Position numbers and translations under genes: made by a program
Shown: piece after piece, positions 12,105-38,856 of the stretch
Position numbering within the stretch: the stretch's first letter is position 1
Layout of the letters: every line of letters begins with the position of its first letter
The notes under the pieces: generated by a model
Seen by the model: only the letters and a program-made list of their open reading frames with translations
Told to the model about the DNA's origin: nothing
Databases searched by the model: none
Source of the DNA: a virus
Virus record (IMG/VR): IMGVR_UViG_3300033150_000367
Span: 1-39,896 of that record
Length of the DNA stretch: 39,896 nucleotides
Direction: 5' to 3' (one strand)

Positions 12105-12109
12105 TAAAG

Positions 12110-14074: not shown

Positions 14075-14078
14075 AATT

Positions 14079-15162: not shown

Positions 15163-15167
15163 ATAAT

Positions 15168-15527
15168 ATGATAAAAATAAAAGCACTGACAGGTATAGAA
15201 TTTGAAAAACTTACAAAAAAAGAAAAGTTAAAAATGCCCTACACAGATAGGTTAGATATTTTAAAAAAAGAAGTTATATCAAGAGTTCTTTTTATTCCTA
15301 TCAGAAAAAAGGTCAATGGATACGGAGCAAGTGCGGTTTTCATTGAAAGTAGATTAGGTTGGAATAGAATAGTGGATTATGATTGTTTCAAGTTTTTTAT
15401 ATCTGATAAAGATAAAAGTTATAGATATATACAAGGAGATTTTCAGTATGGAGGAGTTGTTTTCTTTCTAGAAAAGGGAAGTTTAAGCAGATTCACGAAT
15501 GAATTTATCAAGAAATATAATAAATAA
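15168..15527 (+). CDS. Hypothetical protein of recombination operon
   Basis: The 119-residue basic protein has a helical N-terminal half and an aromatic-rich C-terminal half (GASAVFIESRLGWNRIVDYD; YRYIQGDFQYGGVVFF). No motif I recognise. It is tightly placed between the methyltransferase and the coiled-coil protein with an A-rich leader. Confidence 0.6.
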   Translation: MIKIKALTGIEFEKLTKKEKLKMPYTDRLDILKKEVISRVLFIPIRKKVNGYGASAVFIESRLGWNRIVDYDCFKFFISDKDKSYRYIQGDFQYGGVVFFLEKGSLSRFTNEFIKKYNK

Positions 15528-15538
15528 TAAAAAAAATT

Positions 15539-16390
15539 ATGAAAAACAATATGAAAATTCAAGCATTCAATCCTACGAAATCAGAAATAATAACCGCAGT
15601 AAAAAAAGTTGAGAATCTAACCATAAAAAACATTGATGACGAGGCTGGATATGCCACTGTGAAGACCGCTAAGAAGACTTTAGCTGGTTATCGGACAAGT
15701 ATAACTAAATTCGGTAAAGAGCAACGACAGGAGGCAATAAAGTGGCAAAAAGAGGTATTGAGGCAAGAGAAAGAACTATTATTTATAATATCGCCGACAG
15801 AAAACAAATTAAAAGGAAAATTAGAAGTATTTGATAAAGCGAAAGAAAGAAAAGAAAGGGAGGTTTTATTGCCAACGAGAAGAAAATTAATTGACGATAT
15901 AGAGGGAGAGCTTAACGACGATGAAATTCTAGCAATGGATGAAAAGGAATTTGCGGAAGTTTACGGAGAAATGAAAATTTTATATGATCAAGAGCAAGAG
16001 CGAAAGAAAGAAGCCAAAGAATTAGAAAAGAAAAGACTGGAAGATTTAGAAAAAGCCAAAAAGCAAGCAAGAGCGGAAGCTAAAATAGAAGCGGAACAAG
16101 AAAAAAAGGAAGCTATCGCAAATGAAAAGCGAAAAGCAAAAGAAGCGAAACAGAAAATCATTGACGAACAAAACAAAAAAGAGCGAGAGAGATTAGAAGC
16201 TGAAGCTGAGGAAAAAAGGCGAGCGGAGGTGGAGGCTCAAGCTGAAAAGAAACGGCAAGAGATTTTAGAAAAAGATAAAAAATTCAGGGAATTTCTAGAA
16301 AATAACGGATATGATAAAAACACTGATATTTTAAAGCCAGACGAAAAGGAAGTAGAATTGTATAGAATTGTTAATACATTTAAGAAGTAA
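15539..16390 (+). CDS. Coiled-coil protein (DUF1351-like) with ERF/YqaJ
   Basis: The 283-residue protein has an N-terminal region with TAKKTLAGYRTSITKFGKEQ and KWQKEVLRQEKELLFIISPT, which resembles DUF1351-type proteins found next to phage recombinases, then a long Lys/Glu/Ala coiled coil (about residues 150-255) and a short terminal domain (FREFLENNGYDKNTDILKPD). It may serve as a recombination accessory; mechanism is not known. Low-complexity coil prevents firmer assignment. Confidence 0.72.
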   Translation: MKNNMKIQAFNPTKSEIITAVKKVENLTIKNIDDEAGYATVKTAKKTLAGYRTSITKFGKEQRQEAIKWQKEVLRQEKELLFIISPTENKLKGKLEVFDKAKERKEREVLLPTRRKLIDDIEGELNDDEILAMDEKEFAEVYGEMKILYDQEQERKKEAKELEKKRLEDLEKAKKQARAEAKIEAEQEKKEAIANEKRKAKEAKQKIIDEQNKKERERLEAEAEEKRRAEVEAQAEKKRQEILEKDKKFREFLENNGYDKNTDILKPDEKEVELYRIVNTFKK

Positions 16391-16391
16391 T

Positions 16392-16631
16392 ATGCAAAAA
16401 TACATAAAAAATTACATAGAAGCTAATGGATTTGTAGAGGGAGATTTTATCCCTTGTGAAATATGTGGAAAAACAGCAGTAGACATTCATCATATTCTAC
16501 CGAAAGGGAGGGGAGGAACAGATGAAGCTGAAAATTTAATCGCTCTTTGCCGTTCTTGTCATCAGCGTTCGCATAAAGAGAAAAATCCATACATAGAAGC
16601 AGATGAATTATTTAGAATAAAAAACACTTGA
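16392..16631 (+). CDS. Small HNH endonuclease
   Basis: ATG 16392 gives 79 residues; an earlier ATG at 16368 lies within the previous gene and lacks support. The protein has C-E-I-C, D-I-H-H-I-L-P-K-G-R-G-G, E-N-L-I-A-L-C and R-S-C-H, the complete HNH zinc-bound active-site layout. HNH proteins of this size near recombination or packaging genes cut DNA in recombination or packaging; which of these is undecided. It is probably the last gene from the 13033 promoter. Confidence 0.85.
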   Translation: MQKYIKNYIEANGFVEGDFIPCEICGKTAVDIHHILPKGRGGTDEAENLIALCRSCHQRSHKEKNPYIEADELFRIKNT

Positions 16632-16656
16632 CACGACAAAGCCCATAGTGTATAAT
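16628..16656 (+). promoter_or_regulatory. Promoter of HNH nuclease gene
   Basis: TTGACA at 16628-16633, 17-bp spacer, TATAAT at 16651-16656, overlapping the end of the preceding HNH gene. The nuclease at 16683 begins 26 bases later. Confidence 0.87.
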
Positions 16657-16682
16657 TGAGTTATAATTCTTAATTTAGTTAT

Positions 16683-17333
16683 ATGCCAATAATAAAGTGT
16701 GATGAGTGTGGTAGTATTTTTTATAAAAGACCAAATAGAATAAAAAGTAGCAAAAACAATTTTTGTTCGCACAAATGTGCTGGAAAGTATACAAGTAAAA
16801 AAAATTCACAAATAAAGGTTTGTCCTTTTTGCAAAAGACAATTTAGAATTAAAAATAGCGAAATTAAAAGGAAAAAAACATTGTTTTGTTCTAGGAATTG
16901 TTGGCTTTCGTATATTAAAGATAATAAAAAAACCTCAATAGGATCAGACGGATATGAGCATTATGATAATAAAAGGAAGCACAGAGTAATTGTGGAAGAA
17001 TTTATAGGAAGAAAACTTACAAAAGACGAAGTAATCCATCATAAAAATGGAATTAGAAGTGATAATAGGATAGAAAACTTAATAATAATGACAAAAAGTG
17101 AACACCATAAATTACATTATAAAGAAATAAAATATAAGCTATCAAGAAGAATTACTAGGGAATATAAATGTGTTGTTTGTGGTAAAAAATACAAAAGTAA
17201 ATCTTATAAATCAAAATACTGTTCACAAAAATGTTATAGAGAAACTAGAAAAGAATATTTTAAAAAGTGGGAGCAAAAAAATAGGGAATGCCATATTTTA
17301 GCACACGAACATAAATTACATAAAAAAGATTAA
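16683..17333 (+). CDS. Free-standing HNH homing-type endonuclease with zinc fingers
   Basis: The 216-residue basic protein starts with C-D-E-C and C-S-H-K-C, then C-P-F-C with C-S-R-N-C, and ends with C-V-V-C with C-S-Q-K-C: three treble-clef-like zinc modules. In the centre, HRVIVEEFIGRKLTKDEVIH is followed by H-K-N-G-I-R-S-D-N-R-I-E-N-L and S-E-H-H-K-L-H, the HNH homing nuclease core. It has its own promoter and no obvious link to its neighbours, as expected of a selfish gene. Confidence 0.87.
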   Translation: MPIIKCDECGSIFYKRPNRIKSSKNNFCSHKCAGKYTSKKNSQIKVCPFCKRQFRIKNSEIKRKKTLFCSRNCWLSYIKDNKKTSIGSDGYEHYDNKRKHRVIVEEFIGRKLTKDEVIHHKNGIRSDNRIENLIIMTKSEHHKLHYKEIKYKLSRRITREYKCVVCGKKYKSKSYKSKYCSQKCYRETRKEYFKKWEQKNRECHILAHEHKLHKKD

Positions 17334-17351
17334 GGAATATAAAGAAATAAT

Positions 17352-17501
17352 ATGAATAAAGAAGAAAAGTTAAAAAAATTTATCAAAGAGAACAAAAATG
17401 TTTGGGCTGTGGGACTGGTTATGACCTTTCATATTTCTGAAGAACAAGCCATAGCATTCATAGATGTAATTGTAAAAGATATATTAGAATCTAATAAATA
17501 A
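17352..17501 (+). CDS. 49-residue hypothetical protein
   Basis: A short frame beginning with MNKEEKLKKFIKENKNVWAV, two helices separated by FHISEEQA, and an ATAATATG start. It is the first of a run of very short genes. No family recognised. Confidence 0.5.
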   Translation: MNKEEKLKKFIKENKNVWAVGLVMTFHISEEQAIAFIDVIVKDILESNK

Positions 17502-17502
17502 A

Positions 17503-17646
17503 ATGAATAAAGAAGAATTTGAAAAAAAACATCCAAACGCTAAATCAGATATGATGATAGAAGAAGCTATCGCTAGTGCAGAATTGGCAGAAAAAAAAGA
17601 AATTAAAAAACCTAACAATAAAATAAAATGGGAATATCACTACTAG
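17503..17646 (+). CDS. 47-residue hypothetical protein
   Basis: The frame starts one base after the previous stop and begins MNKEEF, like its neighbour. It is charged and helical (IEEAIASAELAEKKE) and its end overlaps the next start by 19 bases. Function unknown. Confidence 0.42.
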   Translation: MNKEEFEKKHPNAKSDMMIEEAIASAELAEKKEIKKPNNKIKWEYHY

Positions 17647-23811: not shown

Positions 23812-24140
23812 AAAGATACATACATAAAAAAATAATAAAATACAAAAAGGAGCTCGCTTTATCATCTGTAATTTTTGATTTATTATTTTTAAAAAAATTT
23901 AATGAGGAGATATTATCAATGGATATAGAGAGTGAGAAGATTAAATTAGACGAGTTAGTATTAAAAATAAAAGAATTAGACAAAAAGAAAAAAGACACAA
24001 TAAAATTAAAGGACGAAGCATTAAAGATAAGGTCAAAAGTTGAAAATAAGAACGCAGTTGAAAAACAGCTAATGGCAGGAAATAATGTTGCAAGGCAACT
24101 TAGATACCAATTAGAATTATTAAAGAGATGGAAAAAATAA
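23808..24140 (+). CDS. Coiled-coil protein, unknown function
   Basis: The 110-residue lysine-rich protein is largely helical (MDIESEKIKLDELVLKIKEL; KDEALKIRSKVENKNAVEKQ) with a terminal basic helix. It overlaps RusA upstream and the deacetylase downstream. No family recognised; scaffold or DNA-binding roles are both possible. Confidence 0.62.
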   Translation: MKRYIHKKIIKYKKELALSSVIFDLLFLKKFNEEILSMDIESEKIKLDELVLKIKELDKKKKDTIKLKDEALKIRSKVENKNAVEKQLMAGNNVARQLRYQLELLKRWKK

Positions 24141-24706
24141 TAACAATAGATGACGGATCATTATTTGACGGAAAGGTTTCAAAAATATTAGAAAGTTTTG
24201 GTTTAAGAGGATTATTCTTTATACCGAATAATTGTGAGATAGATGAGGGTGCTATTAAAAAAATATCAAAGAAGCACGATATAGGAGGGCATACAGTAAG
24301 CCACGCATTATTAACAAAGCTAAACGAGAAAGAGCGATTAAAAGAGATTGTTGAAAATAAAAAGTATTTAGAAAATTTAATAGGAAGAAAAATAAAAAGC
24401 TTTGCTTATCCTAGGGGCTGGTTTAACAAGGATGTAATTAAGAGCGTTGAGAAAGCAGGATACGAAAGAGCCTATACAATGAAGCTAGGAATAACAAATG
24501 TGGGGAATTATAATAAACTTTCACTTCCAAGAACTTTCCATATATATCCAAGAAAAGAATACGACGGATCAATAGTAAAAGCTGGAACAGATTTATACGA
24601 AAAAGCAAAAAAGGGAGGATATTTTAATATGGCATTTCACGGATGGGAGATTCAAAAGTTTGATTTATGGGAAGAATTTGAAAAATTACTAGAACACATA
24701 AGATGA
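24128..24706 (+). CDS. Polysaccharide deacetylase (NodB fold)
   Basis: The 192-residue protein has the main NodB motifs: I-T-I-D-D-G (D8, D9), G-G-H-T-V-S-H (H55 and H59, metal ligands), F-A-Y-P-R-G (92-97) and a late A-F-H-G-W-E in the place of the catalytic His motif. It should remove acetyl groups from N-acetylated sugars, in peptidoglycan or in a glycan made by the neighbouring transferases. It has no signal peptide, so action on a cytoplasmic intermediate or on virion glycans is favoured (inferred). Confidence 0.85.
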   Translation: MEKIITIDDGSLFDGKVSKILESFGLRGLFFIPNNCEIDEGAIKKISKKHDIGGHTVSHALLTKLNEKERLKEIVENKKYLENLIGRKIKSFAYPRGWFNKDVIKSVEKAGYERAYTMKLGITNVGNYNKLSLPRTFHIYPRKEYDGSIVKAGTDLYEKAKKGGYFNMAFHGWEIQKFDLWEEFEKLLEHIR

Positions 24707-25629
24707 TAAAAATAAAAGTTCCAAGTTTAAATAGAAAAGACTCAGTCGGAGGAGGAAGCACTTTCATCCAAAATCTTAAAAAATTTGAGAAGTTAGGATA
24801 TAAATTAGTAGATAGCGGAGATTATGATATTTTTTTTATAGCTGGTGCTTCACTGGCAGATCGTGGAGAAGTAGAAAGAGCCGAGGAAGAAAACAAGCCG
24901 ATAGTTTTAAGGATTGATAATATTTTAGAAGACAGTAAAAACAGAAATACGGGAATGCCTAGACTAAGAGAGTTTGCAGAAAAATCAGAAGTTATTGTTT
25001 ATCAGACTGAATGGGCGAAAAAACTGATGAAGCCTTATTGTGGAAACCAAGAGGGAGCTGTAATAAATAATGGAGTAGATACGGATATATTTTATCCAAA
25101 AAATAATACGAATGAGAATATAAAAGTTTTTTATTCAAAGTTTTCAAGAAATGAAGTTAAGCGTTTCCACGAAGTTCAATATTTTTGGAGAGAATATAAT
25201 TTAGAAAAAAAAGGAGATGAATTAATTTTAGTAGGGAGATTTGCAGATGATGTAAGAAAAATAAACAATCCTTTTGAATTTCATAACGGAGAAAAATTTA
25301 ACTATAAAGGAATTTTACAACCAGAAGCAATGGCAGAAGTTATTAGAAGTTGCAATGTAGCTTTTATACCTTATTTTGCAGACGCTTGCAGTAATACTAT
25401 TTTAGAAATTCAAGCCTGCGGTGTTCCAGTTTTATATAACGCTTATGGAGGAACGAAAGAACTCGTAATGAATGGTAGAGAGATTGATTGGAATAAATCA
25501 GCCGTAAAAATGGTAGAGGAAGTTTTAGAAAAAGATTATTTAGATTTTGAAAATTTTAAATTGAGCTTCGGGCTTGAAACAATGTGCCAAAAGTATTATG
25601 GATTATTTAAGATTTTATTAAATGAGTAG
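24703..25629 (+). CDS. GT-B glycosyltransferase (GT4-like)
   Basis: The 308-residue protein has a Rossmann-like N half (ending VIVYQTEWAKKLMKPYCG, VINNGVDTDIFYP, the hinge of GT4 enzymes) and a C half with ILQPEAMAEVIRSCNVAFIP, then SNTILEIQACGVPVLYNAYG and GTKELV. The E-x7-E-type motif is represented by NTILEIQACG. It should transfer a sugar from an activated donor; the donor is unknown. ATGA overlap with the deacetylase. Confidence 0.87.
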   Translation: MIKIKVPSLNRKDSVGGGSTFIQNLKKFEKLGYKLVDSGDYDIFFIAGASLADRGEVERAEEENKPIVLRIDNILEDSKNRNTGMPRLREFAEKSEVIVYQTEWAKKLMKPYCGNQEGAVINNGVDTDIFYPKNNTNENIKVFYSKFSRNEVKRFHEVQYFWREYNLEKKGDELILVGRFADDVRKINNPFEFHNGEKFNYKGILQPEAMAEVIRSCNVAFIPYFADACSNTILEIQACGVPVLYNAYGGTKELVMNGREIDWNKSAVKMVEEVLEKDYLDFENFKLSFGLETMCQKYYGLFKILLNE

Positions 25630-26239
25630 TTATTCAAGGATACAATTGGAAGATTATTTAAAGCTTATCAATGTAAACACTTATGCTGTTTTAGATATTG
25701 GAGGTTCACAAAATTCAATCAAAGGCAGGACAGGCAGTTGGAATGTTAAAGAATATTCAATATTAGATTTAAAAAAACCGCACGAAAATAAAAGGAAGCC
25801 TGATTATCATCACGATTTAAATATTTCATTAGAATCAGGGAGAGCTGTAATTGAGAATAAATCAGGCGAGCCAGTTTCTTTGAATAATTATTACGATGTA
25901 GCATTTTGTATAGAAGTTTCAGAATATTGGTGGAATCCACTTCAAGCACTTAAAAACATAAATTCATTTTTAAAAAAAGGAGGAATATTATACATATCAT
26001 TTCATTTTATTTATCCACATCACGAGCCAAATGGAGAGGATTGTTTGAGATATACTTTATTGGGGGCTAGAAAGTTGCTTGAAAAAACAGGATTTAAAAT
26101 TAAAGGTATTTATCCTAGATATTTTAATAATAAAAACATAGCTGTGAATGTTTACAACAAGGAAAGAATGCGAGGGCTAAATAAAAACAATAATTATGTT
26201 CACGAAATTCAAGGAATAGTGGTAGAAGCGATTAAATAA
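25622..26239 (+). CDS. SAM-dependent methyltransferase 1 of glycan cluster
   Basis: The 205-residue protein has a Rossmann AdoMet site (TYAVLDIGGSQNSIKGR), an acidic second strand (YSILDLKKPHENKRKPDYHH), F-C-I-E-V-S-E-Y-W-W-N-P and FLKKGGILYISFHFIYPHHE. It is a class I methyltransferase, most like those in sugar clusters (O-methylation of a glycan is the likely role). It overlaps the glycosyltransferase by eight bases. Confidence 0.83.
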   Translation: MSSYSRIQLEDYLKLINVNTYAVLDIGGSQNSIKGRTGSWNVKEYSILDLKKPHENKRKPDYHHDLNISLESGRAVIENKSGEPVSLNNYYDVAFCIEVSEYWWNPLQALKNINSFLKKGGILYISFHFIYPHHEPNGEDCLRYTLLGARKLLEKTGFKIKGIYPRYFNNKNIAVNVYNKERMRGLNKNNNYVHEIQGIVVEAIK

Positions 26240-26243
26240 ATTT

Positions 26244-26795
26244 ATGCGACTTAATTTAGGATCACATAATAAAGTAGTTAAAGGATATAAAAATGTTGAC
26301 GCTCTTGATTTAGAGAATGTTGATATTATTCATAATTTAACAGAATATCCATATCCATTTGAAACTGATAGCATAGATGAAATTCTTATGACAGAAGTTT
26401 TAGAACACATCAGCTGGAGAGAAACTATAAATGTATTGAGAGAATGCCATAGGATATTAAAGCCAGACGGCAAATTTCATATACAAGTTCCAGATTGTGA
26501 GAGTATGATGGAGGCTTATTTTTCAGGAGGAATTTGTAGTAATGTTCCGCATAAACCGCAAAACGAAAAGGAAGTGTTAGATCATAGTTGTGAAAATTGC
26601 AAAGGCAAAGGATATGTAAATCCTATGAGGTGGAAAATGGGATTTTTGGGAGCTCAAAAGCACGAATACGATTATCACAGGAATATTTTTACGCCGAGAA
26701 TTTTAATTGAAAATTTAGAAGAAGCTGGGTTTAATAAAATAGAATTATTAGATGATAAGTTTAAATGGAAAATAAAAATTAATACTTATAAATAA
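26244..26795 (+). CDS. SAM-dependent methyltransferase 2 with C-x-x-C insertion
   Basis: The 183-residue protein begins MRLNLGSHNKVVKGYKNVDA, a glycine-rich AdoMet loop, then ILMTEVLEHI and CHRILKPDGKFHIQVPDCES, the class I core. Between strands is a cysteine knuckle C-E-N-C-K-G-K-G, like a DnaJ-type zinc half-site, unusual in this small family. The insertion may bind metal or a partner. Substrate is probably a sugar, given neighbours on both sides. Confidence 0.84.
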   Translation: MRLNLGSHNKVVKGYKNVDALDLENVDIIHNLTEYPYPFETDSIDEILMTEVLEHISWRETINVLRECHRILKPDGKFHIQVPDCESMMEAYFSGGICSNVPHKPQNEKEVLDHSCENCKGKGYVNPMRWKMGFLGAQKHEYDYHRNIFTPRILIENLEEAGFNKIELLDDKFKWKIKINTYK

Positions 26796-28381
26796 TGAAA
26801 ATATTACAAATAATTGATTCTCCCGTTTGGGCTATAGGAGGATTAGCAGAAACAATAAAAGAGAAAAACGAACATCTAAAAATAAAGATTATAGATATAC
26901 ATCCGAAAGATTTAAGAAATGATGAGAATAAATATGGAGGATTTTTTGATGACGAAGTAAAAAAATTTAAGCCAGACATAATACATTTTCATTATTGGGA
27001 TTCAGCCGAAACCTTATCACATAGAAAATCTTGCAAAGATATTAAAAAAATACTTACTCATCATAATCAAAAAAACCTTTTATCACACAAGTGGGAAAAG
27101 ATTGATAATTTAGTTGTTCACACTCAAAAAGCTAAAGAGATTTTAGAAAAAGCAGGACATTGGAATGTAAGCGTAATACAACACGGAATAGATATTGAGA
27201 AATTTTATTTTAACAAAGAATATAAAAAAACTGGGAAATACGGATTTGTAGGCAGGGTTTGCAGGTGGAAAGGTCTTGAAGATTGCTTAAAAGTATGTAA
27301 GGAATTTGGAAAAAAACTAATAATGATGGGAAGAATAGATAAGGGTGATGTTTGGAGCGAATGCCAAAAATATAAGGATGTAATGGATATAAGATTCGGG
27401 ACAAAAGATGAGGATCGTGTAAAAGTTTATCACGAAATGGATTTTTATATAGGAAATTCAAGCGATAATATTGAGGAGGGAACATTGTGTTTATTAGAAG
27501 CTATGAGTTGCGGAATACCAGTTATAACTACTCCTAGCGGAGAAGCTAAAGACATTATCAAAGACGGGGAAAATGGAATACTAATAAATTTTGAAGATTA
27601 CGAAAGTTTAAAAAATGGTATTAAAAGATTTTCAAAAATAGAGAAAGCCGAAGTAGATAAAATGAGAGAGAATGCTTGGGATACGGTAAGGCTTATGAAT
27701 CAGGATATTATGGCAAGAAATTATGAAAAACTTTATTATCAAACACTCCATAAAAAAGATTTAGTTTCAGTTATTGTGCCAACACATAACAGAAAAGATA
27801 ATTTGATTAAAATAGTTGAGGCTTATAGCAAGCAGATTTATAAGCCAATAGAAATAATAATTTGTGATGATAATTCAAAGGATGAAACCGAATCAATCAT
27901 TAGAGCATTAAAATCAGCTTTTGATATACCAATAAAATACTTAAATACTAAATATGACGGATATGGATTGGCACACGCAAGAAATATGGGAGTATTCAAA
28001 GCCAATGGTAATTACATAGTATTTTCAGATGATAGAATGAAGCCAGACACAATGGCGGTTGAATATTTAGTAAATAATTTAAAACAAAGGAAAGGTTTGA
28101 GTGCCGTATGGGGAGATAAAGGAGCGGGAAAAAGAGATTTTATTGAAAACTTTTTTTGCATAAGAAAAAAACATATTAAAGATGCAGGAATGTTTAACGA
28201 GAGAATTAACGAATATGGAGGACAGAGTCAAGAGCTAAGGCAAAGATTAAGGAACTTAGGATTTAATTTACAATATGAGCCAGGAGCAAAAGCAAGCCAA
28301 CTGATAAGGGGAACTTCAAAAAAATCAAAGAGATATGAAATATTTAGAATGAAAAAGAAGTTATGGCTATTAGATAATTAA
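26795..28381 (+). CDS. Bifunctional GT4-GT2 glycosyltransferase fusion
   Basis: Residues 1 to about 320 are a GT4-type GT-B enzyme: MKILQIIDSPVWAIGGLAET, VIQHGIDIEKF, YGFVGRVCRWKGLEDCLKVC, TLCLLEAMSCGIPVITTPSG and EAKDIIKDGENGILI. From about residue 323, SVIVPTHNRKDNLIKI, EIIICDDNSKDETES and ARNMGVFKANGNYIVFSDDR form a GT2 (GT-A) domain with a D-D-R metal site. The two enzymes could add successive sugars. It is the longest gene of the cluster, and its start abuts methyltransferase 2. Confidence 0.92.
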   Translation: MKILQIIDSPVWAIGGLAETIKEKNEHLKIKIIDIHPKDLRNDENKYGGFFDDEVKKFKPDIIHFHYWDSAETLSHRKSCKDIKKILTHHNQKNLLSHKWEKIDNLVVHTQKAKEILEKAGHWNVSVIQHGIDIEKFYFNKEYKKTGKYGFVGRVCRWKGLEDCLKVCKEFGKKLIMMGRIDKGDVWSECQKYKDVMDIRFGTKDEDRVKVYHEMDFYIGNSSDNIEEGTLCLLEAMSCGIPVITTPSGEAKDIIKDGENGILINFEDYESLKNGIKRFSKIEKAEVDKMRENAWDTVRLMNQDIMARNYEKLYYQTLHKKDLVSVIVPTHNRKDNLIKIVEAYSKQIYKPIEIIICDDNSKDETESIIRALKSAFDIPIKYLNTKYDGYGLAHARNMGVFKANGNYIVFSDDRMKPDTMAVEYLVNNLKQRKGLSAVWGDKGAGKRDFIENFFCIRKKHIKDAGMFNERINEYGGQSQELRQRLRNLGFNLQYEPGAKASQLIRGTSKKSKRYEIFRMKKKLWLLDN

Positions 28382-28388
28382 AAAATAG

Positions 28389-28470
28389 ATTATTTATAGG
28401 GGTTGATTGAAGTTTTAATCATCACTTAGGTGGTGGGGTCTCTAGATACTTCAATCTCCCTATAAGTAAT
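28389..28470 (+). repeat. Long imperfect hairpin, MITE-like or RNA element
   Basis: 28389-28401 pairs with 28458-28470 (13 pairs, one G-U); after a 3:1 internal loop, 28405-28413 pairs with 28448-28456 (nine pairs). Inside, CATCAC (28420-28425) and GTGGTG (28430-28435) form a hairpin. It fills almost all of the 102-base gap and has no U-run. The ends ATTATTTA and TAAGTAAT are identical to those of the element at 18732 and 19401. Confidence 0.72.
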
Positions 28471-28483
28471 TTATAAAAAAAAT

Positions 28484-28933
28484 ATGAAAAATGTAGAATT
28501 AGGAGGTGGAGAAAATCCACGCAGAAAAAAAGATGGATATATAAATGTTGATGTAATTGAGAATAAGCTAGTAGATAAACAGTGCGATTTTGAAAAAGAT
28601 AAGTTGCCTTTTAGAAGTGGAAGTGTAGAAGCTATTTTTAGTTCACATTGTTTAGAGCATATTGAAAATACAAAGCTTTTTTTGAATGAATGCCATAGAA
28701 TTTTAAGTAAAAATGGGAGAGCTAAATTCATTGTTCCATACGGTTTACATCCTGGAAGTCAGAAACCAGTTCACAAACAATGTATTACAGAATGCTGGTT
28801 TGATTTTTTAAGGAAAGAAAATGTAGAAAGAATATACGGATATAAAAGATGGAATATAGATACGATGGATTTATTAAAAGATAAGGAGGATAGAATTTAT
28901 GAAATAAGAATAGTATTAACTCCAATAAAATGA
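28484..28933 (+). CDS. SAM-dependent methyltransferase 3
   Basis: The 149-residue protein starts MKNVELGGGENPRRKKDGYI with a glycine-rich AdoMet loop, followed by NVDVIENKL, LPFRSGSVEAIFSSHCLEHI and CHRILSKNGRAKFIVPYGLH. This is the class I fold in short form, akin to methyltransferase 2 but without its cysteine knuckle. It probably methylates a sugar. It begins after a long hairpin with AAAAAAAATATG. Confidence 0.82.
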   Translation: MKNVELGGGENPRRKKDGYINVDVIENKLVDKQCDFEKDKLPFRSGSVEAIFSSHCLEHIENTKLFLNECHRILSKNGRAKFIVPYGLHPGSQKPVHKQCITECWFDFLRKENVERIYGYKRWNIDTMDLLKDKEDRIYEIRIVLTPIK

Positions 28934-29490
28934 AAGTAGTTTTAATATCACAACAAGGAAGTGGAACTAATTTATTGAGAGCTTTATTAAATTCTAATTG
29001 TAATATAGAAATTAATGCAGAAATATTTTCAGATAGATATAAATATAATGACGGTTGGGATAGGAAAGAACCTATAAAAAAATATCTAGACAAATTTTTT
29101 AATAGCCATTATGAAGTTAAAGGATTTGACTTAAAATATAATCAAATTACAGACGAAATATTAGATTATATTGAAAAAAATAATATTAAAGTAATTTTAT
29201 TAAGTAGAGATCCAGCAAGGACATTTTTAAGACATATAAACGAATTATCAAAAAGATCGTTTAAATACGAAGAGGTAATTGAGCATTGTAAAAAAATAAG
29301 AGATAACGAAAGAAAAATATTAAATAGATTTGATTGCTTACACATAAGATATGAAGAAATGACATTAGGAAAAGAAATAAAACAATTGCCTATTAAATTT
29401 GAAAATAAGATATTAGAATTTTTGAAAGTTGATAATAGATTATATATAAAAAAATTTGAAACAACTAAAGATTTAAAAAGAAGATATTAG
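28930..29490 (+). CDS. Sulfotransferase-like protein
   Basis: The 186-residue protein has ISQQGSGTNLLRALL (residues 6-20), matching the phosphosulfate loop of P-loop sulfotransferases, and VILLSRDPARTFLRHINELS (88-107), corresponding to the 3'-phosphate binding helix with R93 and R101. These are the two PAPS-binding motifs; the usual Ser of the second motif is not clear. Reaction would be sulfation of a sugar made by the cluster. No PAPS synthesis gene is present, so host PAPS would be needed. Confidence 0.78.
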   Translation: MKVVLISQQGSGTNLLRALLNSNCNIEINAEIFSDRYKYNDGWDRKEPIKKYLDKFFNSHYEVKGFDLKYNQITDEILDYIEKNNIKVILLSRDPARTFLRHINELSKRSFKYEEVIEHCKKIRDNERKILNRFDCLHIRYEEMTLGKEIKQLPIKFENKILEFLKVDNRLYIKKFETTKDLKRRY

Positions 29491-29493
29491 AAT

Positions 29494-29601
29494 ATGAAAA
29501 CATTTCTAATTATAATAGCCTGCTTACTCTTCATCTACTTATTCCCAAAAGTAGTTGGGACTGTAATTTATTGGAGTAAGTTTTTAATAAATTTAATATA
29601 A
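29494..29601 (+). CDS. 35-residue single-span membrane protein
   Basis: A hydrophobic helix over most of the sequence (FLIIIACLLFIYLF) with a positive start. It lies between the sulfotransferase and a glycosyltransferase and has the leader AGAATATG. It could anchor a glycan complex, but this is speculative. Confidence 0.48.
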   Translation: MKTFLIIIACLLFIYLFPKVVGTVIYWSKFLINLI

Positions 29602-29604
29602 GAA

Positions 29605-30624
29605 ATGAAAAAAAAGAAAAGATTAAAAATTTTAGAAACGCCGTGGCATGTTCCACACAACCACGATTTAATGATGGCACTAAAAGATATAGCTGATTTT
29701 GATTTACTAATAAATTATACTAGACGCTGGGATGAAAGAAACAGGGAATTGCCAAAGAATGCTAGCTGGGTTATTGATATACAACCAAATAAATATGACT
29801 TCGCAATTCTTCACTTAGATCAACAATGCTCAAATTTGAATTTAAATAAGAGCATATTAACTAGGCATATGAAGAAAGTTATTAAAGAGGTTGATCCGAA
29901 ATTGCCTATTGTATTTATAAATCACGGAACGCCAGTATATCCAGAATTATATCCAGACGCAAAAGCTCCAAATTACATATCAAATAAATTAAGAAAAGAA
30001 ATTTTATCAGTAGTGGGAAATGATTTTATGGTTGTAAATTCTAAACAATCAGCAAAAGATTGGGGTAGGGGCTATCCAATAATACACGGAATGGATGAAA
30101 AAGAATGGATATACAACAAAGACAAAGAGCCAAGAGTTTGCACCTTTGTATCACAAGCTGGAATAGGAGATAAATATTACAATAGAAGCTATTTAGCGGG
30201 CTTAATGGAAGTTTTATATGATAAATACGGTATAAGTCTTCAGTGGATAAATACAACTGGTTGTTTCAACGCAAAAAATATTAAAGATTATAAAGAGTTT
30301 TTAGGAAAATGTTTAATTTATTTTAATCCGACATTCGCTAGTCCGATGCCACGATCAAGAACAGAAGCAATGCTGAGTGGTTGCTGTATTGTAAGTTTGG
30401 CTGGACACGATATTGAAGATTATATCAAAGACGGAGAGAATGGATTTATAGTGCCTAGAAACGACATTAACTTTACGGCAGAGCTTATAAAAAGATTACT
30501 AGACAATTATGAATACACAAAAGAGGTAGGAAGAAAAGGAAGAGAAACAGCATTGAAACATTTTAATAGAAAAAGATATGCGGAGGATTGGAAAAAATTT
30601 ATAAAAGAAGAACTAAAAATATGA
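29605..30624 (+). CDS. GT-B glycosyltransferase
   Basis: The 339-residue protein shows a GT-B ordering: a short N domain beginning LKILETPWHVPHNHDLMMAL, FINHGTPVYPELYPD in the middle, VVNSKQSAKDW at the hinge and a C-terminal GT1/GT4-type stretch MPRSRTEAMLSGCCIVSLAG, IEDYIKDGENGFIVP. The E-A-M-x-x-G-C segment is the donor-binding helix. The acceptor cannot be deduced. The TGA overlaps the next ATG. Confidence 0.87.
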   Translation: MKKKKRLKILETPWHVPHNHDLMMALKDIADFDLLINYTRRWDERNRELPKNASWVIDIQPNKYDFAILHLDQQCSNLNLNKSILTRHMKKVIKEVDPKLPIVFINHGTPVYPELYPDAKAPNYISNKLRKEILSVVGNDFMVVNSKQSAKDWGRGYPIIHGMDEKEWIYNKDKEPRVCTFVSQAGIGDKYYNRSYLAGLMEVLYDKYGISLQWINTTGCFNAKNIKDYKEFLGKCLIYFNPTFASPMPRSRTEAMLSGCCIVSLAGHDIEDYIKDGENGFIVPRNDINFTAELIKRLLDNYEYTKEVGRKGRETALKHFNRKRYAEDWKKFIKEELKI

Positions 30625-30713
30625 AAATATTTATATTATTAATTTTTTCTTGGGTTATTATTAGAGCTTACTTTGATATTAAAGACGCTTATAATGATTA
30701 TAAGAATAATTAA
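30621..30713 (+). CDS. 30-residue membrane peptide
   Basis: Starts in an ATGA overlap and has one membrane helix (IFILLIFSWVIIRAYF) followed by a charged tail. Translational coupling to a glycosyltransferase is the main support. Confidence 0.45.
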   Translation: MKIFILLIFSWVIIRAYFDIKDAYNDYKNN

Positions 30714-30719
30714 AAAAAT

Positions 30720-31136
30720 ATGAAAAGGAAAATATGCTTTCGTGTTTGGGATAAAGAAAGAAAATTTATGCTTCCTGCTGAGCAGATACTTCATATAGAA
30801 TTTAATAAAAATGGTGTTAATTGGATAGGAGGATGGGTGCAAGAACCTGATCCAGATGATAAGAGTATTCCAATACAGGCGTTAATTCAAATAGATAATT
30901 TTATTCTTCAACAATACACAGGACTTAAAGACAAAAACGGAAAAGAAATTTATGATGGAGATATTATTGAGGTTAAAGGAAAGGGTTTAGTTTGGGAAAC
31001 ACTTAAAGTTAAATGGGGTCGGGTAGGATGGGAAATGTGTAATAAGGGATTGGTATGTTATGACTTGTGGGACGTGAGCGATGAGATTGAAATAACAGGA
31101 AATATTTATGAGAATAAAAAACTTTTAAAATCATAA
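30720..31136 (+). CDS. YopX-family phage protein
   Basis: The 138-residue protein begins KICFRVWDKERKFMLPAEQI and contains ILQQYTGLKDKNGKEIYDGD followed by IIEVKG, and ends EIEITGNIYEN; these are the YopX signature segments. YopX proteins are common in phages of low-G+C bacteria; function is unsettled. It interrupts the glycosylation genes and may be regulatory or simply carried along. Confidence 0.9.
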   Translation: MKRKICFRVWDKERKFMLPAEQILHIEFNKNGVNWIGGWVQEPDPDDKSIPIQALIQIDNFILQQYTGLKDKNGKEIYDGDIIEVKGKGLVWETLKVKWGRVGWEMCNKGLVCYDLWDVSDEIEITGNIYENKKLLKS

Positions 31137-31137
31137 T

Positions 31138-31992
31138 ATGAAAATAGGATTTTTATTATTCGAATGCTATCATCAGAAAAGAGATATTGGGTCTTCAAGA
31201 ATAAGGGGACGCTGGATAATTAGAGAATTTAAAAAGCTAGGAATAGAAGCGGAGATATTTAAGCAAGGAGCAATGTATGATGTTGTGGTTTATCAAAAAG
31301 TATACTGGAAAGAACACGCCAAAAATTTCAAAGGATTAAAGATTTTAGATATATGCGATCCCGATTGGCTGGACGGAATAGACATAGTGAGCATACTAAA
31401 ATATATTGATGTTATTACAGTCAGCAGTTTAGAGTTAAAAAAAGAAATTGAAAAATTTACAGATAAGCCTGTATATTTTATAGATGACGGAATATTAAAA
31501 CTTGAAAAAAGAAAGGAACATTCAGGAAAGACTAAAATGTTATGTTGGTTCGGATATTCAGGTAATTTTAAAGTAGTAGAGCCAGCTTTGATGAAAATAA
31601 AAAAGCTGGGATTAAAATTAAGAATAATAAGTGATGGAAATTTAAATACTGGAATATGTAAAGTTGAAAATATAAAATGGGAAAAAGAAACTGCAAATAA
31701 ATATATCAAGGAATGCGATATGTGTTTATTGCCAGACGGATTAAGCGGAAGATTTATTTATAAAAGCCAAAACAAAACATATCAATCTTGGGCTTTAGGA
31801 TTACCAGTAGTTAAAACACCAGATCAATTAGAAAAATGGATAGACGGAGAGGAAAGAGAAAAAGAAAGTATAAAGAGGCATAAAGAGGTAGAAAAGAAAT
31901 TAGTAAAATATAGAGCTAAAGAATTGCTGGACTTGTTGGTAAAACACTTAATTAAAAAATATGAAAATAAAAAAGAAAAAGTTAAATCATAG
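31138..31992 (+). CDS. GT-B-like glycosyltransferase, divergent
   Basis: The 284-residue protein begins MKIGFLLFECYHQKRDIGSS, then R-I-R-G-R-W, KILDICDPDWLDGIDIVSIL and DVITVSSLELKKEIEKF (the usual end of the first GT-B domain). The second half has MLCWFGYSGNFKVVEPALMK, CDMCLLPDG and SWALGLPVVKTPDQ, the donor-site order of GT4 proteins, but catalytic motif conservation is weak. It could be inactive or use an unusual donor. Its end overlaps terminase small subunit by 32 bases. Confidence 0.72.
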   Translation: MKIGFLLFECYHQKRDIGSSRIRGRWIIREFKKLGIEAEIFKQGAMYDVVVYQKVYWKEHAKNFKGLKILDICDPDWLDGIDIVSILKYIDVITVSSLELKKEIEKFTDKPVYFIDDGILKLEKRKEHSGKTKMLCWFGYSGNFKVVEPALMKIKKLGLKLRIISDGNLNTGICKVENIKWEKETANKYIKECDMCLLPDGLSGRFIYKSQNKTYQSWALGLPVVKTPDQLEKWIDGEEREKESIKRHKEVEKKLVKYRAKELLDLLVKHLIKKYENKKEKVKS

Positions 31993-32380
31993 ACAAGAAA
32001 GATTCTGTAAACTATATGCAACAGATAAAGAGTTTTTTTGTAATGGAGTTCAAAGTTATATAGAAGCATACGATATAGATGTAAATAAAAAAGGTGCTTA
32101 TAACGGGGCTAGGGCGAATGCATCAGAGCAACTAACAAAGACTAACATTTTAGAGAGAATAAACGAGCTAATAGAGGAGAGCGGTTTAAATGATGCTTTT
32201 GTAGATAAGCAACTTTTAAAAATGATTAATCAAGATGCTGATTTTAAAGTTAAAGTTTCTGCTATTAAAGAATATAATGTTTTACAGCAAAGAATAAAAA
32301 GAAAATTAGAAATAGAGACTGATCAAGAAACTAAGGATGCTTTGGTCGGTATAATTGATAAATTAAATGAAAAAGTATGA
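31961..32380 (+). CDS. terS: Terminase small subunit
   Basis: The 139-residue protein begins KLNHRQERFCKLYATDKEFF, followed by SYIEAYDIDVNKKGAYNGAR, the HTH-containing DNA-binding half of the terminase_2 family (A-x-x-Y-x-A pattern), and a helical oligomerisation region. It recognises packaging sites and loads the large subunit that follows with a 14-base overlap. It is also coupled to the last glycan gene, joining the cluster to the head operon. Confidence 0.9.
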   Translation: MKIKKKKLNHRQERFCKLYATDKEFFCNGVQSYIEAYDIDVNKKGAYNGARANASEQLTKTNILERINELIEESGLNDAFVDKQLLKMINQDADFKVKVSAIKEYNVLQQRIKRKLEIETDQETKDALVGIIDKLNEKV

Positions 32381-33758
32381 ATCAATTAGAGAACTGGTTT
32401 CAAGTATTTTTAAAGATGACGAGCAAAAGCCATTAATATTATCATACGGGCAGATTGACATTTTCCTTTCAATATTTTTAAGAGATAATAAAAGAGTTCA
32501 GATAATAGCTCCTACACAATATGGAAAATCAAGCACAGTAGCTTGTGCGATTATATTAAGAAGTCAAGCTAAAAAGGAAGAATGGGGAATAGTTGCAGGA
32601 AGCCAGCCGAAAGCTGATATTATAATGCAAAAGGTTTTACAGCATACCTTTGATAACACAGATATATACACACAGCTAGAGTTAGATACAAATGAGCCAT
32701 TAGAAAGAATTAAGAGGGAAAGAAGCAGGAAAAGGATAACTTGGAAAGGGGGAGGGGAGATCAGGACATTCACAGCCGATAGCAGGAATAGGCAGAAAGT
32801 TAAAGAGGCATTGATGGGTTATGGTTGTCCGAATGTAGTAGAGGACGAATCAGCGTTGATTGAGGACGATTTACATTCAACAGTAATGAGAATGTTAGGA
32901 GGACATAACGGAGGGTTTTTATTGAAGATTGGGAATCCAACATATAAAGATTCGCCGAATAGACATTTTTATAAAAGTTGGAATAATCCGAATTATAAAA
33001 AAGTTTTTATAGATTACAAGCAAGCATTGAAAGAGGGAAGATATTCGCAAGAGTTTATAGACGAGATGAGAATTGAAATGAGCGATGAGTTTTTTAGAAT
33101 TTATTATGAATGCTTATTTCCAAAAGAGGAAACTATCGACAAGCAAGGTTATTACAGATTATACAATGATTTATTGTTAAAAAATGTTTTTGAAAATTTA
33201 GAATTAGAGGGGGATTTAAGATTAGGGTTTGATATTGGTGAGGGAGGAGATGAGAATGTAGGAATATTAAGAGGTAAAAATTTTGCGAAAATTATTCACA
33301 AGTCAAGGATTAAAGATTTGATGGCGACAGTGAATGAGATTAAAAAGATCATTGATAAATATAAATTAAATCACGGCAATGTTTTTATAGATGCAATAGG
33401 AATAGGAGCAGGGGTTTATAACAGATTGAAAGAACTGGGATACGATATTGTTCCTGTTAAGTGGAGCGAAAAAGCTTTAGGAAAATATAATGAAACGAGA
33501 GAGTTTAAAAACTTAAAAGCGGAAAACTTTTTCAATAGTGCAAGGTGGTTAAAAGGCGGAGGAAGATTAGAAATATTAGACGATTGGAATGAGCTAAGAG
33601 ATATAAAATGGAAAGAGGATACTGATGGGACAATGAAAATTAAAAGCAAACAAGAAATGAGAAAGGAGGGAATAAAATCTCCAAATGTTGCAGATGGACT
33701 AGCATTAACATTCAACAGAAGCACAGAAGAAGAAGCTCCAAAGATTTATATAGTTTAG
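32367..33758 (+). CDS. terL: Terminase large subunit
   Basis: The 463-residue protein has Walker A at 48-55 (APTQYGKS), Walker B V-V-E-D-E-S at 157-162 with the catalytic E after D-E, and a C-terminal RNaseH-fold nuclease with D289 (LGFDIGEGGDE), D342 (VFIDAIGIG) and D443 (NVADGLAL). These are the acidic residues of the large-terminase nuclease. It powers DNA packaging and cuts concatemers. No intein or insertion is seen. Confidence 0.97.
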   Translation: MKKYESIRELVSSIFKDDEQKPLILSYGQIDIFLSIFLRDNKRVQIIAPTQYGKSSTVACAIILRSQAKKEEWGIVAGSQPKADIIMQKVLQHTFDNTDIYTQLELDTNEPLERIKRERSRKRITWKGGGEIRTFTADSRNRQKVKEALMGYGCPNVVEDESALIEDDLHSTVMRMLGGHNGGFLLKIGNPTYKDSPNRHFYKSWNNPNYKKVFIDYKQALKEGRYSQEFIDEMRIEMSDEFFRIYYECLFPKEETIDKQGYYRLYNDLLLKNVFENLELEGDLRLGFDIGEGGDENVGILRGKNFAKIIHKSRIKDLMATVNEIKKIIDKYKLNHGNVFIDAIGIGAGVYNRLKELGYDIVPVKWSEKALGKYNETREFKNLKAENFFNSARWLKGGGRLEILDDWNELRDIKWKEDTDGTMKIKSKQEMRKEGIKSPNVADGLALTFNRSTEEEAPKIYIV

Positions 33759-33808: not shown

Positions 33809-36025
33809 ATGAATATACTTGAAAGATTAAATAGTTTTTTTCCAAAATATAAAGGAAATGAAAAAGAAATTGAATTAAAAAAAGAGGATCCCGTAGAAGC
33901 AATAACTCCCATTTACAAAGAGATATCTCCAGAAAGAAATTTGGAGAAGCTTTTGGAAGAGGGAGTTTTTAGTTGGTCTTTTATGGCAATGAATGCAATC
34001 GCAGAAGAAATAATGTCAATGCCTTTGAGATTATTTAAGAAGAACGGAGAAGAAATAAAAGCACACGCAATATTAAATTTAATAGATAAGCCGAACGAAT
34101 TGCAAACTACTACTCAGTTTTTTTGGCAGATTATAATGGTATATTTGGCTACGGGAGAAGCTCCGATTTTGACGAATGGAAAGAATCCAACTAATATGAC
34201 TTTGATAAATCCGAATAAGCTAAAGATGAATTTTTCAGGAGGAAAGATTGATTATTACGAATACACGCAAAGCAATGGAACAATAATGAGAATAGAAAAT
34301 CCAGAAGAATTAGTTTTCTTAAAAATTCCAACGCTTATAAATCCATTCAGGGGTCAGGGAAGATTGAAATACATTTTAAAGACTTTAGATTTAGATGATT
34401 TTATGGAAAAGTATTTAGTTAATTTCTTTTTTAACGATGCTACTCCCGGGGCTGTATTGCAAACAGATAAGGAATTAAATCAGGGAATAGTAGATAGATT
34501 AAAACAGCAATTTAAAACAAAATACACAGGAGTAAAAAATTCACACAAACTAGCCATATTAGAAAAGGGATTAAAGTGGCAAGAAACTTCTAGCAAGATC
34601 AGCGAAATGCAATTAAGTGATGAGCAGAACGAAATAAGAAATAAAATATTAGCTGCGTTCAAAGTTCCAAAATCTATATTAGGAATCACTGAAGATGTAA
34701 ATAGAGCAAACGGAGAAAATAGCGATCGTGTATTTTCAAAGAGAGCGGTAAAGCCAATATTAGTAGCAGTGGAAGAACAATTAAATACATTCTTATTGCC
34801 ATTATTTGCAGGAACGGAAAATATGGAATTGGTTTTTGACGATCCAGTAAAAGAAGACCAAAAATTAAAGGCGGAGATATACGAGATTTATGCAAGAAAT
34901 AATATAATGACTGTTGATGAAATTAGAGAGGAGCTATCACTAGAATCAATAGAAACAGAAGAAGAGGAAGAAGAGGAAGAAGAAAAAAAAGTTAAAAATA
35001 GCGATCCAATTAAAGATTTAGTTTCAGAGTTATTACAAGCGGAAAGCAATAAGCTAAAGAAAAGATTTACACATAAAGAAGTTTCAAATTTCCACGATGA
35101 AAAGATATTTAATAGCAACGATATTGAGGCAAGATATAAAGAAAAGCTAAAGAGTATGTTTAGACTTTTTGGCAGGAATATAGTAAAGCAGTTAGAAGTA
35201 AAAACAAAAAAACAATTAGAAAATTTTAACTTTCAAAGCGAAGAACAAAAACAGATAACTGCTGAAATTTCAGCTCCGTTCATAGAAGAGGCATTGATAA
35301 GACAGAGTAGTTTGACTTACGCATTTTTAGGGTTGCAAGATACATTCAAACCGCAAGATAAATTTGTAGTTGATTTTATAAAAAATAGAACACTTAAATT
35401 AGGAACGTCAACTTCTAAAACTACAAGAGATGCAGTTGAAAGAATTTTAAGGGATTGGACAAAAGAAGAAGAATCAGTGGCAGATTTAAAAAAGAGATTA
35501 AAACTTTATTTCAATGAAACGAAAAGAAGCGACACCATAGCTAGAACGGAAGTTAGCAGGGCTAGCGGAGAAGCTACTGGAAAAATTTACAAAGATGTAG
35601 GGGCAGTAGGAAAGCAATGGATTACGGCAAGAGATGAAAGAGTATGCGAATTTTGCAGATTGATGGATGGCAAGATAGCACCGATCAATAGAAACTTTTG
35701 GTTAAAAGGGCAAACTATGATTGGAGAAAACGGAGGCAAGCTGAGTTTTGGTTTTGAGGGGATAAAACAATTTCCATTACACGCCGATTGCCGTTGTGAT
35801 TTAATACCAATTTTTGACAAATCAGAATTAAAGGGAGTTAATTATCATAAACTGAATAAGCAAAGATTAGAAGAAATTGAAAACAAAAAGCTTAAAGAAA
35901 AAGAAATAAAAGAAAAAGAATTAGAATTAAAAGAAAGAGAAAGAGAAATAGAAATAGATGTAAAAAAGATTGATAAAATTTACGAAAATCTAGATGAAAA
36001 AAGAAATAAAAGAAAAAATAAATAA
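33809..36025 (+). CDS. Portal-MuF head morphogenesis fusion protein
   Basis: The 738-residue protein has a phage portal domain up to about residue 380 (FSWSFMAMNAIAEEIMSMPL; WQIIMVYLATGEAPIL; AAFKVPKSILGITED), an acidic poly-Glu linker near 380-395 and then a second domain. The C-terminal domain shows SDTIARTEVSRASGEATGKI (from about 573), ERVCEFCRLMDG (C613 and C616) and PLHADCRCDLIP, the MuF/SPP1 gp7 minor head signature. In most phages these are separate genes; the fusion ties a minor head protein to each portal subunit. No internal start is obvious. Confidence 0.93.
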   Translation: MNILERLNSFFPKYKGNEKEIELKKEDPVEAITPIYKEISPERNLEKLLEEGVFSWSFMAMNAIAEEIMSMPLRLFKKNGEEIKAHAILNLIDKPNELQTTTQFFWQIIMVYLATGEAPILTNGKNPTNMTLINPNKLKMNFSGGKIDYYEYTQSNGTIMRIENPEELVFLKIPTLINPFRGQGRLKYILKTLDLDDFMEKYLVNFFFNDATPGAVLQTDKELNQGIVDRLKQQFKTKYTGVKNSHKLAILEKGLKWQETSSKISEMQLSDEQNEIRNKILAAFKVPKSILGITEDVNRANGENSDRVFSKRAVKPILVAVEEQLNTFLLPLFAGTENMELVFDDPVKEDQKLKAEIYEIYARNNIMTVDEIREELSLESIETEEEEEEEEEKKVKNSDPIKDLVSELLQAESNKLKKRFTHKEVSNFHDEKIFNSNDIEARYKEKLKSMFRLFGRNIVKQLEVKTKKQLENFNFQSEEQKQITAEISAPFIEEALIRQSSLTYAFLGLQDTFKPQDKFVVDFIKNRTLKLGTSTSKTTRDAVERILRDWTKEEESVADLKKRLKLYFNETKRSDTIARTEVSRASGEATGKIYKDVGAVGKQWITARDERVCEFCRLMDGKIAPINRNFWLKGQTMIGENGGKLSFGFEGIKQFPLHADCRCDLIPIFDKSELKGVNYHKLNKQRLEEIENKKLKEKEIKEKELELKEREREIEIDVKKIDKIYENLDEKRNKRKNK

Positions 36026-38277: not shown

Positions 38278-38856
38278 ATGAAATGTGTTATTTGCGGAAA
38301 AGAATTAGTGAGAAACCAAAAGAAAACTTGTAGCTGGAAGTGTAGAGGAAAGTATAGTAGGTCTTTTGTAAAAACTCCGTGGAACAAAGGAAAGAAAATG
38401 TCAAAAGAGTTTTGTAAAAAAATCAGTGTATCACATAAGGGAAAACATTATTCACCAAAAACAGAATTAACATCAGCACGAGTGAAGAAAATGTGGCAAG
38501 ACCCAGAACACAAAAAAAGTGTTTCTGAAAAAATAAGTAAAGCAAATAAAGGAAGAAAATTTTCTATAGAAACCAGAAAAAAAATGAGTAAAGCTCAAAC
38601 AGGAGTTGTCAAGCCTAGAGGAAAGGATAGTCCAAGTTGGAAAAAAGATGATTTAACTTATACAGGAGTGCACGCAAGAATTAGACGAGAATTTGGCGAG
38701 GCTATAATATGTGAGCATTGTGGAACAACAACAGCAAAAAGATATGATTGGGCAAATAAAGACCACAAATATAGTTTAGATAAAAAAGATTGGATGCAGT
38801 TATGTAGAGGATGTCATCAGAAATATGATTATAAAATGGGGTTTAGAAAAAGATAA
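38278..38856 (+). CDS. HNH homing endonuclease with NUMOD3 motifs
   Basis: The 192-residue protein begins with a zinc knuckle (C-V-I-C, C-S-W-K-C), then two or three NUMOD3 DNA-binding repeats (GKKMSKEFCKKISVSHKGKH; SEKISKANKGRKFSIETRKK; KMSKAQTG) and a C-terminal HNH-type fold (C-E-H-C-G-T, D-W-A-N-K-D-H-K-Y-S, L-C-R-G-C-H-Q). This order is typical of free-standing phage homing endonucleases. It lies between two head genes with its own promoter, as a selfish insertion would. Confidence 0.88.
   Translation: MKCVICGKELVRNQKKTCSWKCRGKYSRSFVKTPWNKGKKMSKEFCKKISVSHKGKHYSPKTELTSARVKKMWQDPEHKKSVSEKISKANKGRKFSIETRKKMSKAQTGVVKPRGKDSPSWKKDDLTYTGVHARIRREFGEAIICEHCGTTTAKRYDWANKDHKYSLDKKDWMQLCRGCHQKYDYKMGFRKR

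Follow-up and report, generated by a model that had tools for sequence, protein, structure and literature searches.

For what purpose does a phage with a 40-kb genome carry a dense block of glycan-modifying genes against its terminase genes, and on which molecule do their products act? The question is raised by IMG/VR virus record IMGVR_UViG_3300033150_000367, analysed here over its positions 1 to 39,896 (39,896 nucleotides, hereafter the window), in which positions 24128-31992 encode glycosyltransferases (GTs), methyltransferases, a deacetylase and a sulfotransferase-fold protein. Given its 114-base direct terminal repeat, the window is the complete genome of an uncultured phage of about 39.8 kb (39,782 unique bases, 32% guanine plus cytosine, GC), of which the glycan block occupies 7,865 bases (19.8%), in agreement with the one fifth estimated in an earlier, sequence-only reading. 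With moderate confidence, we consider late cytoplasmic glycosylation of a virion protein to be the best explanation of this module. Since it recurs beside head-building genes in about 75 contigs, these phages are likely to give their virions a tailor-made glycan coat.

Relatives were collected by scanning viral contigs with alignments of the terminase large subunit (TerL) and of two GTs of the block, GTb and GTc, which led to more than 100 loci before dereplication. After removal of overlapping and near-identical loci, 75 with GTc were left and all frames of these were profile-searched. A search for the gene set in other phages had been suggested, and absence of similar genes from related ones had been named as evidence against the interpretation; the opposite was found, as about 75 distinct, otherwise undescribed phage contigs share the module beside the head genes, lineage-wide. 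Nearly all of the lineage has the GT core, with the restriction that relatives were mostly found with GT bait, so that lineage-wide frequencies are conditional on having GTs and apply to the module rather than to the phage group as a whole.

Synteny is pronounced. GTb is established within 2.5 kb upstream of GTc in 48 of 51 testable loci, a GT4-GT2 fusion GT precedes GTc within 5 kb in 43/45, and the portal gene follows it within 6 kb in 43/47, with protease and capsid genes also usually downstream. The TerL family of the window lies within 4 kb of GTc in only 15 of 62 loci; because this family is less constant, the portal-protease-capsid block is the stable partner of the module. The order NodB-GTa-MT1-(MT2)-GT4GT2-(MT3)-GTb-GTc-portal repeats across contigs of 25-62% GC, and among the long relatives (the window being additional) the fusion GT is found in 22/22 and the NodB deacetylase in 18/22. 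Portal relatives at about 20-28% identity have no module glycan genes in the stretches compared, and the module therefore marks a sub-lineage. Some larger relatives bear a uridine diphosphate (UDP)-sugar dehydrogenase and an epimerase just upstream of NodB; the reported lack of a sugar-nucleotide synthesis gene thus holds for the window but does not extend to all relatives.

By Mantel correlation of distance matrices, GTc, GTb and the fusion GT agree with portal, protease and major capsid protein (MCP) at r 0.56-0.76, about as closely as the three virion proteins agree with one another (r 0.68-0.77). The methyltransferase MT1 follows them more loosely (r 0.33-0.52). According to these correlations the GT core has been co-inherited with the virion genes, and the tailoring enzymes have been swapped more freely. 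Position beside terminase and portal, together with this co-divergence, lends good support to the earlier proposal that the cluster acts during virion production.

The genes of the block all have the same direction and are tightly packed, with several overlaps of ATGA or longer. Together with their neighbours they are:

24128..24706, + strand: CE4/NodB polysaccharide deacetylase (PF01522, E=3e-19)
24703..25629, + strand: GTa, GT4-like glycosyltransferase (PF13692, E=2.4e-8; PHROG 2170; 24 loci)
25622..26239, + strand: MT1, S-adenosylmethionine (SAM) methyltransferase (PF08241, E=4.8e-5, above cut-off; 34 loci)
26244..26795, + strand: MT2, SAM methyltransferase (PF08241, E=7.6e-8; 61% identity in cousin contig L004)
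26795..28381, + strand: GT4-GT2 fusion glycosyltransferase with two catalytic domains (PF00534, 1.1e-19, and PF00535, 4.6e-24, in separate halves)
28484..28933, + strand: MT3, compact SAM methyltransferase (PF08241, E=7.3e-10; 53% identity in L004)
28930..29490, + strand: sulfotransferase-fold protein, accessory (PF13469, 2e-5 alone; fold match)
29494-29601, + strand: 35-amino-acid single-span membrane peptide MKTFLIIIACLLFIYLFPKVVGTVIYWSKFLINLI (translation)
29605..30624, + strand: GTb, TarM/SdgB-related glycosyltransferase, conserved core (PF00534, 9.8e-11; 66 loci)
30621-30713, + strand: 30-amino-acid membrane peptide MKIFILLIFSWVIIRAYFDIKDAYNDYKNN, overlapping the GTb stop (translation)
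30720-31136: YopX (PF09643, 5e-22)
31138..31992, + strand: GTc, GT-B-fold protein, conserved core (alignment, AlphaFold, PDB fold matches; about 75 distinct loci)
31961..32380, + strand: terminase small subunit, neighbour (PHROG 51, E=3e-11)
32367..33758, + strand: terminase large subunit, neighbour (PHROG 2, E=1e-26)
33809..36025, + strand: portal with head-morphogenesis-like C-terminal part, neighbour (PHROG 2662, 8e-87)

Most of the sequence-only reading was borne out at the level of genes. Pfam and the GTc model confirm four GT proteins (one of them the GT4-GT2 fusion), three SAM methyltransferases and a NodB deacetylase, enzyme identities which give good support to the proposed role in building or modifying a glycan. 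The tiny membrane peptides interspersed among them are real frames, and the tie to the terminase is real as well, GTc and the small subunit overlapping by 32 bases (31961 vs 31992). YopX is located within this stretch but does not belong to the glycan genes. The deacetylase scores 69.7 bits with PF01522 against a curated cut-off of 23.1, and residues D8, D9, H55, H59, P95 and H171 are invariant in a 13-member alignment, the metal-binding Asp-His-His corresponding to D8/D9, H55 and H59. It reaches only 28 bits with the NodB equivalog TIGR04243 (cut-off 240) and subsequently should not be enlisted as NodB proper. In the fusion GT, the E-x7-E region and the DDR motif are kept in the family alignment.

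Concerning the two core GTs, the GTb profile matches TarM structures, its nearest solved relatives (E=5e-9), and weakly the NCBIfam SdgA family (9e-5). GTc belongs to no sequence family in Pfam (best 14.4 vs 27 bits), PHROGs or NCBIfam, and a sequence search of the PDB gave no match for it. Its family alignment presents the motifs GSSRIRG and KSxNK...ALGxPV. The AlphaFold model (predicted local distance difference test, pLDDT, 92) has 90 PDB matches at E<=0.001 (best E 4.7e-7), and the 50 listed are nearly all GT-B enzymes, so the predicted structure assigns GTc to the GT-B fold. Among those listed are SdgB, GtfC/Gtf3 of serine-repeat adhesins, PimA, BshA and the T4 DNA beta-glucosyltransferase. 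SdgB and GtfC/Gtf3 glycosylate proteins. A search of 50,697 described phage records gave no match for GTc or for a second GTb and only two weak partial matches for the window's GTb.

The block is neither a chance arrangement nor a mis-assembly, because a near-identical contig from a separate metagenome and a syntenic cousin both carry it. The former (L002) is 99.97% identical to the window over 12,567 bases. Its four differences are confined to GTa and GTb (24711-24736 and 29924), and one of them replaces GTb residue His107, which does not vary in the family alignment, by Pro, through sequencing error or real variation. The cousin L004 shares 53-64% protein identity in six block genes and 56% in TerL, and keeps the order MT1, MT2, fusion, MT3, GTb, GTc, TerL, portal at 46-64% identity. 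It lacks the sulfotransferase and YopX; interspersed among its genes are a different GT2, a further methyltransferase and an MT-A70-like methylase. Between the fusion GT and MT3 of the window, a gap of 102 bases is predicted to contain a strong RNA hairpin at positions 28385-28474 (minimum free energy, MFE, -37.2 kcal/mol, z -7.0); it has no Rfam match, and its exact arm is absent from the relatives except the near-identical L002.

Sulfation had been considered probable, and this is supported as an accessory trait. By itself the 28930..29490 product scores 25.4 vs 27 bits with PF13469 and 19.4 vs 22 bits with Pfam Sulfotransfer_1; as a family, all four members match PF13469 (best E 8e-8) and the profile matches TPST1 and NodH at E 0.003. 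The AlphaFold model (pLDDT 79) has a sulfotransferase fold, its best PDB matches being TPST, a bacterial sulfotransferase, SULT and NDST (template modelling score, TMq, 0.53-0.62), with kinases weaker. A QGSGTxLLRA-type loop for the 5' end of 3'-phosphoadenosine 5'-phosphosulfate (PAPS) is present, the G-x-L loop residues and Arg93 are kept in the family, and conserved Glu E31 aligns with the TPST catalytic Glu region, while the 3' PAPS-binding Ser is replaced by other residues. Activity is therefore likely from the retained residues, not assured. Protein tyrosine could be the target just as well as a sugar, and the window proteins that were scanned included none recognised as an enzyme of PAPS synthesis. 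The gene is present in only 4 of about 75 module loci (the window, L095, L100 and L124); it is accessory, and sulfation as the central chemistry was rejected.

How could such a set of enzymes work? Soluble cytoplasmic GTs, expressed with the head and tail genes, would build a short glycan stepwise on a phage structural protein, with sugar nucleotides supplied by the host. GTb and GTc would be responsible for the protein-proximal part and GTa and the fusion GT for its extension, while the NodB enzyme would take an acetyl group off an N-acetylated sugar and the methyltransferases, in a few phages also the sulfotransferase, would cap the product. The core of the glycan would stay constant, being made by the conserved GTs, and its outermost chemistry would change with the exchangeable tailoring genes, a variation that could alter adsorption or escape from recognition by host receptors or defences. 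Stepwise cytoplasmic transfer is favoured because no membrane span is predicted in any GT and genes for a flippase, polymerase or oligosaccharyltransferase were not seen; the same is true of Gtr-type membrane genes. As candidate acceptors, long Ser/Thr-only (mucin-like) tracts are found in two module-bearing contigs (L005, 9398-10181; L103, 9674-11023), in products of genes that follow the capsid gene, these being the only convincing plus-strand tracts of a scan in which most matches were antisense frames.

Several points weigh against this explanation. Virion glycosylation is predicted here from gene content, folds, catalytic motifs, synteny and co-divergence, and the virion-protein acceptor, the order of action and the benefit are inferred. 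For the window, no Ser/Thr-rich tract was reported by the scan used. Co-divergence and synteny show only co-inheritance with virion genes, not action on them, and the GT-B fold matches of GTc are generic, with PimA, BshA and the T4 enzyme included. Finally, the glycopeptide context described below rests on one clear cellular locus.

The main rival, which we regard as less likely, is remodelling of the host surface, whereby an envelope polymer (teichoic acid-like, capsule or S-layer glycan) would be altered late or in lysogeny, blocking superinfection or the sticking of virions to debris. The closest solved relatives of GTb, the TarM enzymes, are wall-teichoic-acid N-acetylglucosamine transferases, the block contains small membrane peptides, and envelope clusters typically contain GT4, GT2 and NodB families. 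Against this, the scans found no membrane-bound GT, flippase, polymerase or lipid-carrier initiating enzyme, and the module lies among the late head genes and diverges in step with the virion genes. One module member is joined to a bacterial chromosome, which also speaks for this rival. It was found in a GTc scan of GTDB genomes, on a 78.6-kb contig of Ca. Magasanikbacteria (Patescibacteria; DOQH01000013.1), whose first 43.8 kb contain dnaG, ATP synthase, mreB, serS and ftsQ and which from 44.3 kb consists of phage genes, the complete module as well as portal, capsid and tail among them. There is no N between ftsQ and the first phage gene. A 15-base repeat, GTCGCACAATATACC, occurs in that interval at 43.80 kb and again at 78.55 kb, 7 bases from the contig end, and 0/2,000 shuffles gave an equally long match; in the window it has a chance-level match only. 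The layout of the repeat, GTGTCGCACAA-TATACC-TTATGCG, resembles a Xer/dif site, so that integration by host XerCD is possible. The phage part looks, from its sequence, like a prophage in a Patescibacterium, a chimeric join being the alternative. This contig lacks an integrase, and 17 relative virus records contain none of the tyrosine or serine type, so lysogeny seems uncommon, in disagreement with the rival. The same records, the lack of a GT membrane span and the fact that the GtrB PHROG match covers the soluble GT2 domain only led us to reject a temperate O-antigen-conversion (Gtr) cassette.

Concerning hosts, a survey of 380 genomes from the phylum of the Magasanikbacteria genome gave a real GTc in that genome only; prophages of this kind are therefore rare and host range cannot be derived from them. 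Among the GTDB matches only the Magasanikbacteria contig has a chromosomal flank. Saccharibacteria (L130) and Cloacimonadota (L127) were rejected as hosts, their contigs being short, phage-like and possibly misbinned, as were a Dojkabacteria match, which is a distant GT, and a Bacteroidales locus (L131), which is a cellular cluster and not phage. For the window itself, a CHAP domain suggests a host with peptidoglycan.

The Bacteroidales locus (UBA4181, 5751-17515) bears on a further reading, which we find improbable: part of the block would make a modified peptide or small glycoconjugate off the virion, or the block would be a mosaic of unrelated morons. There, GTb-GTc stands beside a C39-peptidase ABC exporter, two GT92, a LanC-like gene and a methyltransferase, in what looks like a secreted glycopeptide cluster judging by its genes; by analogy, this setting hints at polypeptide acceptors and in this respect also counts in favour of virion-protein glycosylation. 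Tailoring genes also vary between phages and YopX lies inside the block. However, the window has no identified gene for an exporter or a precursor peptide, and the recurrent gene order across contigs of 25-62% GC is not expected of morons, a hypothesis rejected by synteny and co-divergence.

DNA hypermodification, in which the GTs would decorate a hydroxymethylated or otherwise activated base and protect phage DNA, is the least probable reading, and the decoration of DNA proposed earlier is disfavoured: phage DNA glycosyltransferases exist, the T4 beta-glucosyltransferase is among the GTc fold matches, and C5 DNA methylases occur in 4/23 relative records, but thymidylate synthase (PF00303) is found in 0/22 long relatives, with control genomes positive, and in none of the window proteins Pfam-scanned, Tet_JBP (PF12851) in 0/23 records (weak, as the control genome matched nothing), the window DNA methylase is N4/N6-type, and NodB plus a chain of four GTs fit an oligosaccharide better than a base. 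One 81-kb relative (L176) carries by eye QueE, QueC, FolE and QueF-like genes of 7-deazaguanine synthesis at 12509-17112, which count in favour of modified DNA and suggest a separate DNA modification in that phage.

Returning to virion glycosylation, we tentatively put forward a wider proposal: a large uncultured lineage, with members in Patescibacteria (Candidate Phyla Radiation, CPR), may be defined by an obligatory virion glycan assembly line, consisting of a fixed GT core (GT4-GT2, GTb, GTc) plus NodB and of exchangeable methyl- and sulfotransferases diversifying the particle surface, with GTc and GTb lacking described viral relatives. If true, a whole phage lineage invests about one fifth of a 40-kb genome in particle decoration, inherited as stably as capsid genes. 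It would also supply a concrete, testable case of complex phage glycoproteins and two glycosyltransferases that fit no named class, besides opening a way into the little-known phages of the ultra-small Patescibacteria.

Apart from the glycan block, the window encodes an HK97-type capsid protein, protease, portal, terminases, a tape-measure-like protein and tail proteins, as well as ERF/YqaJ/RusA recombination proteins, the CHAP lysin and the DNA methylase; scans of its genes and proteins recognised no integrase or tRNA. The strongest predicted fold of the genome is at 12496-12640 (MFE about -48 kcal/mol in 110 bases), within the 12343-12888 frame, and a NUMOD3 homing-endonuclease-like gene is located at 38278-38856. 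In L005, the portal frame (1113-3926) apparently contains a Hint/intein-like insertion and an HNH-type frame (7446-8060) splits the capsid gene (6400-8509) in the manner of an intron or homing element.

Among known systems, chlorovirus PBCV-1 glycosylates its capsid with virus-encoded GTs and methylates the sugars. It resembles the proposed system in that the virus encodes its own multi-step methylated capsid glycan, but it is a eukaryotic giant virus and no homology is claimed. Nod-factor tailoring employs NodB deacetylase, NodS methyltransferase and NodH sulfotransferase, a combination of chemistries equal to that of the module, whose sulfotransferase profile weakly matches the NodH entry (E 0.003); on the other hand, the module shows no sign of NodA or NodC and its deacetylase is below the NodB equivalog cut-off. 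SdgA/SdgB, GtfC/Gtf3 and TarM are linked to the module by the GTb profile match to TarM and by the GTc fold matches to SdgB and GtfC/Gtf3, but identity is low (10-16%), the likeness is at fold level, and those enzymes modify adhesins or wall teichoic acid. In mycobacteriophages, phage-encoded GTs glycosylate capsid or tail proteins of the virion. Glycosylation of mycobacteriophage virions has been inferred from two GT genes (PMC11256854). As in the module, phage-encoded GTs are proposed to act on structural proteins, but one or two GT genes are involved there, whereas the module has seven to nine genes with a deacetylase, methyltransferases and the GT4-GT2 fusion. Sugar- and glycan-related genes have also been reported in groundwater phages assigned to Patescibacteriota (PMC12911398). 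In its passages on these genes, that report treats them as scattered host-boosting auxiliary metabolic genes (AMGs; O-antigen nucleotide-sugar synthesis, lectins) and does not describe a conserved GT module beside the portal; more generally, literature searches in an open-access library gave no description of this module. If our explanation is correct, caution is needed before such genes are labelled as host-boosting AMGs. Phage glycan clusters are already known; what surprises here is a multi-enzyme cluster belonging to the core genes of a lineage none of whose members has been described.

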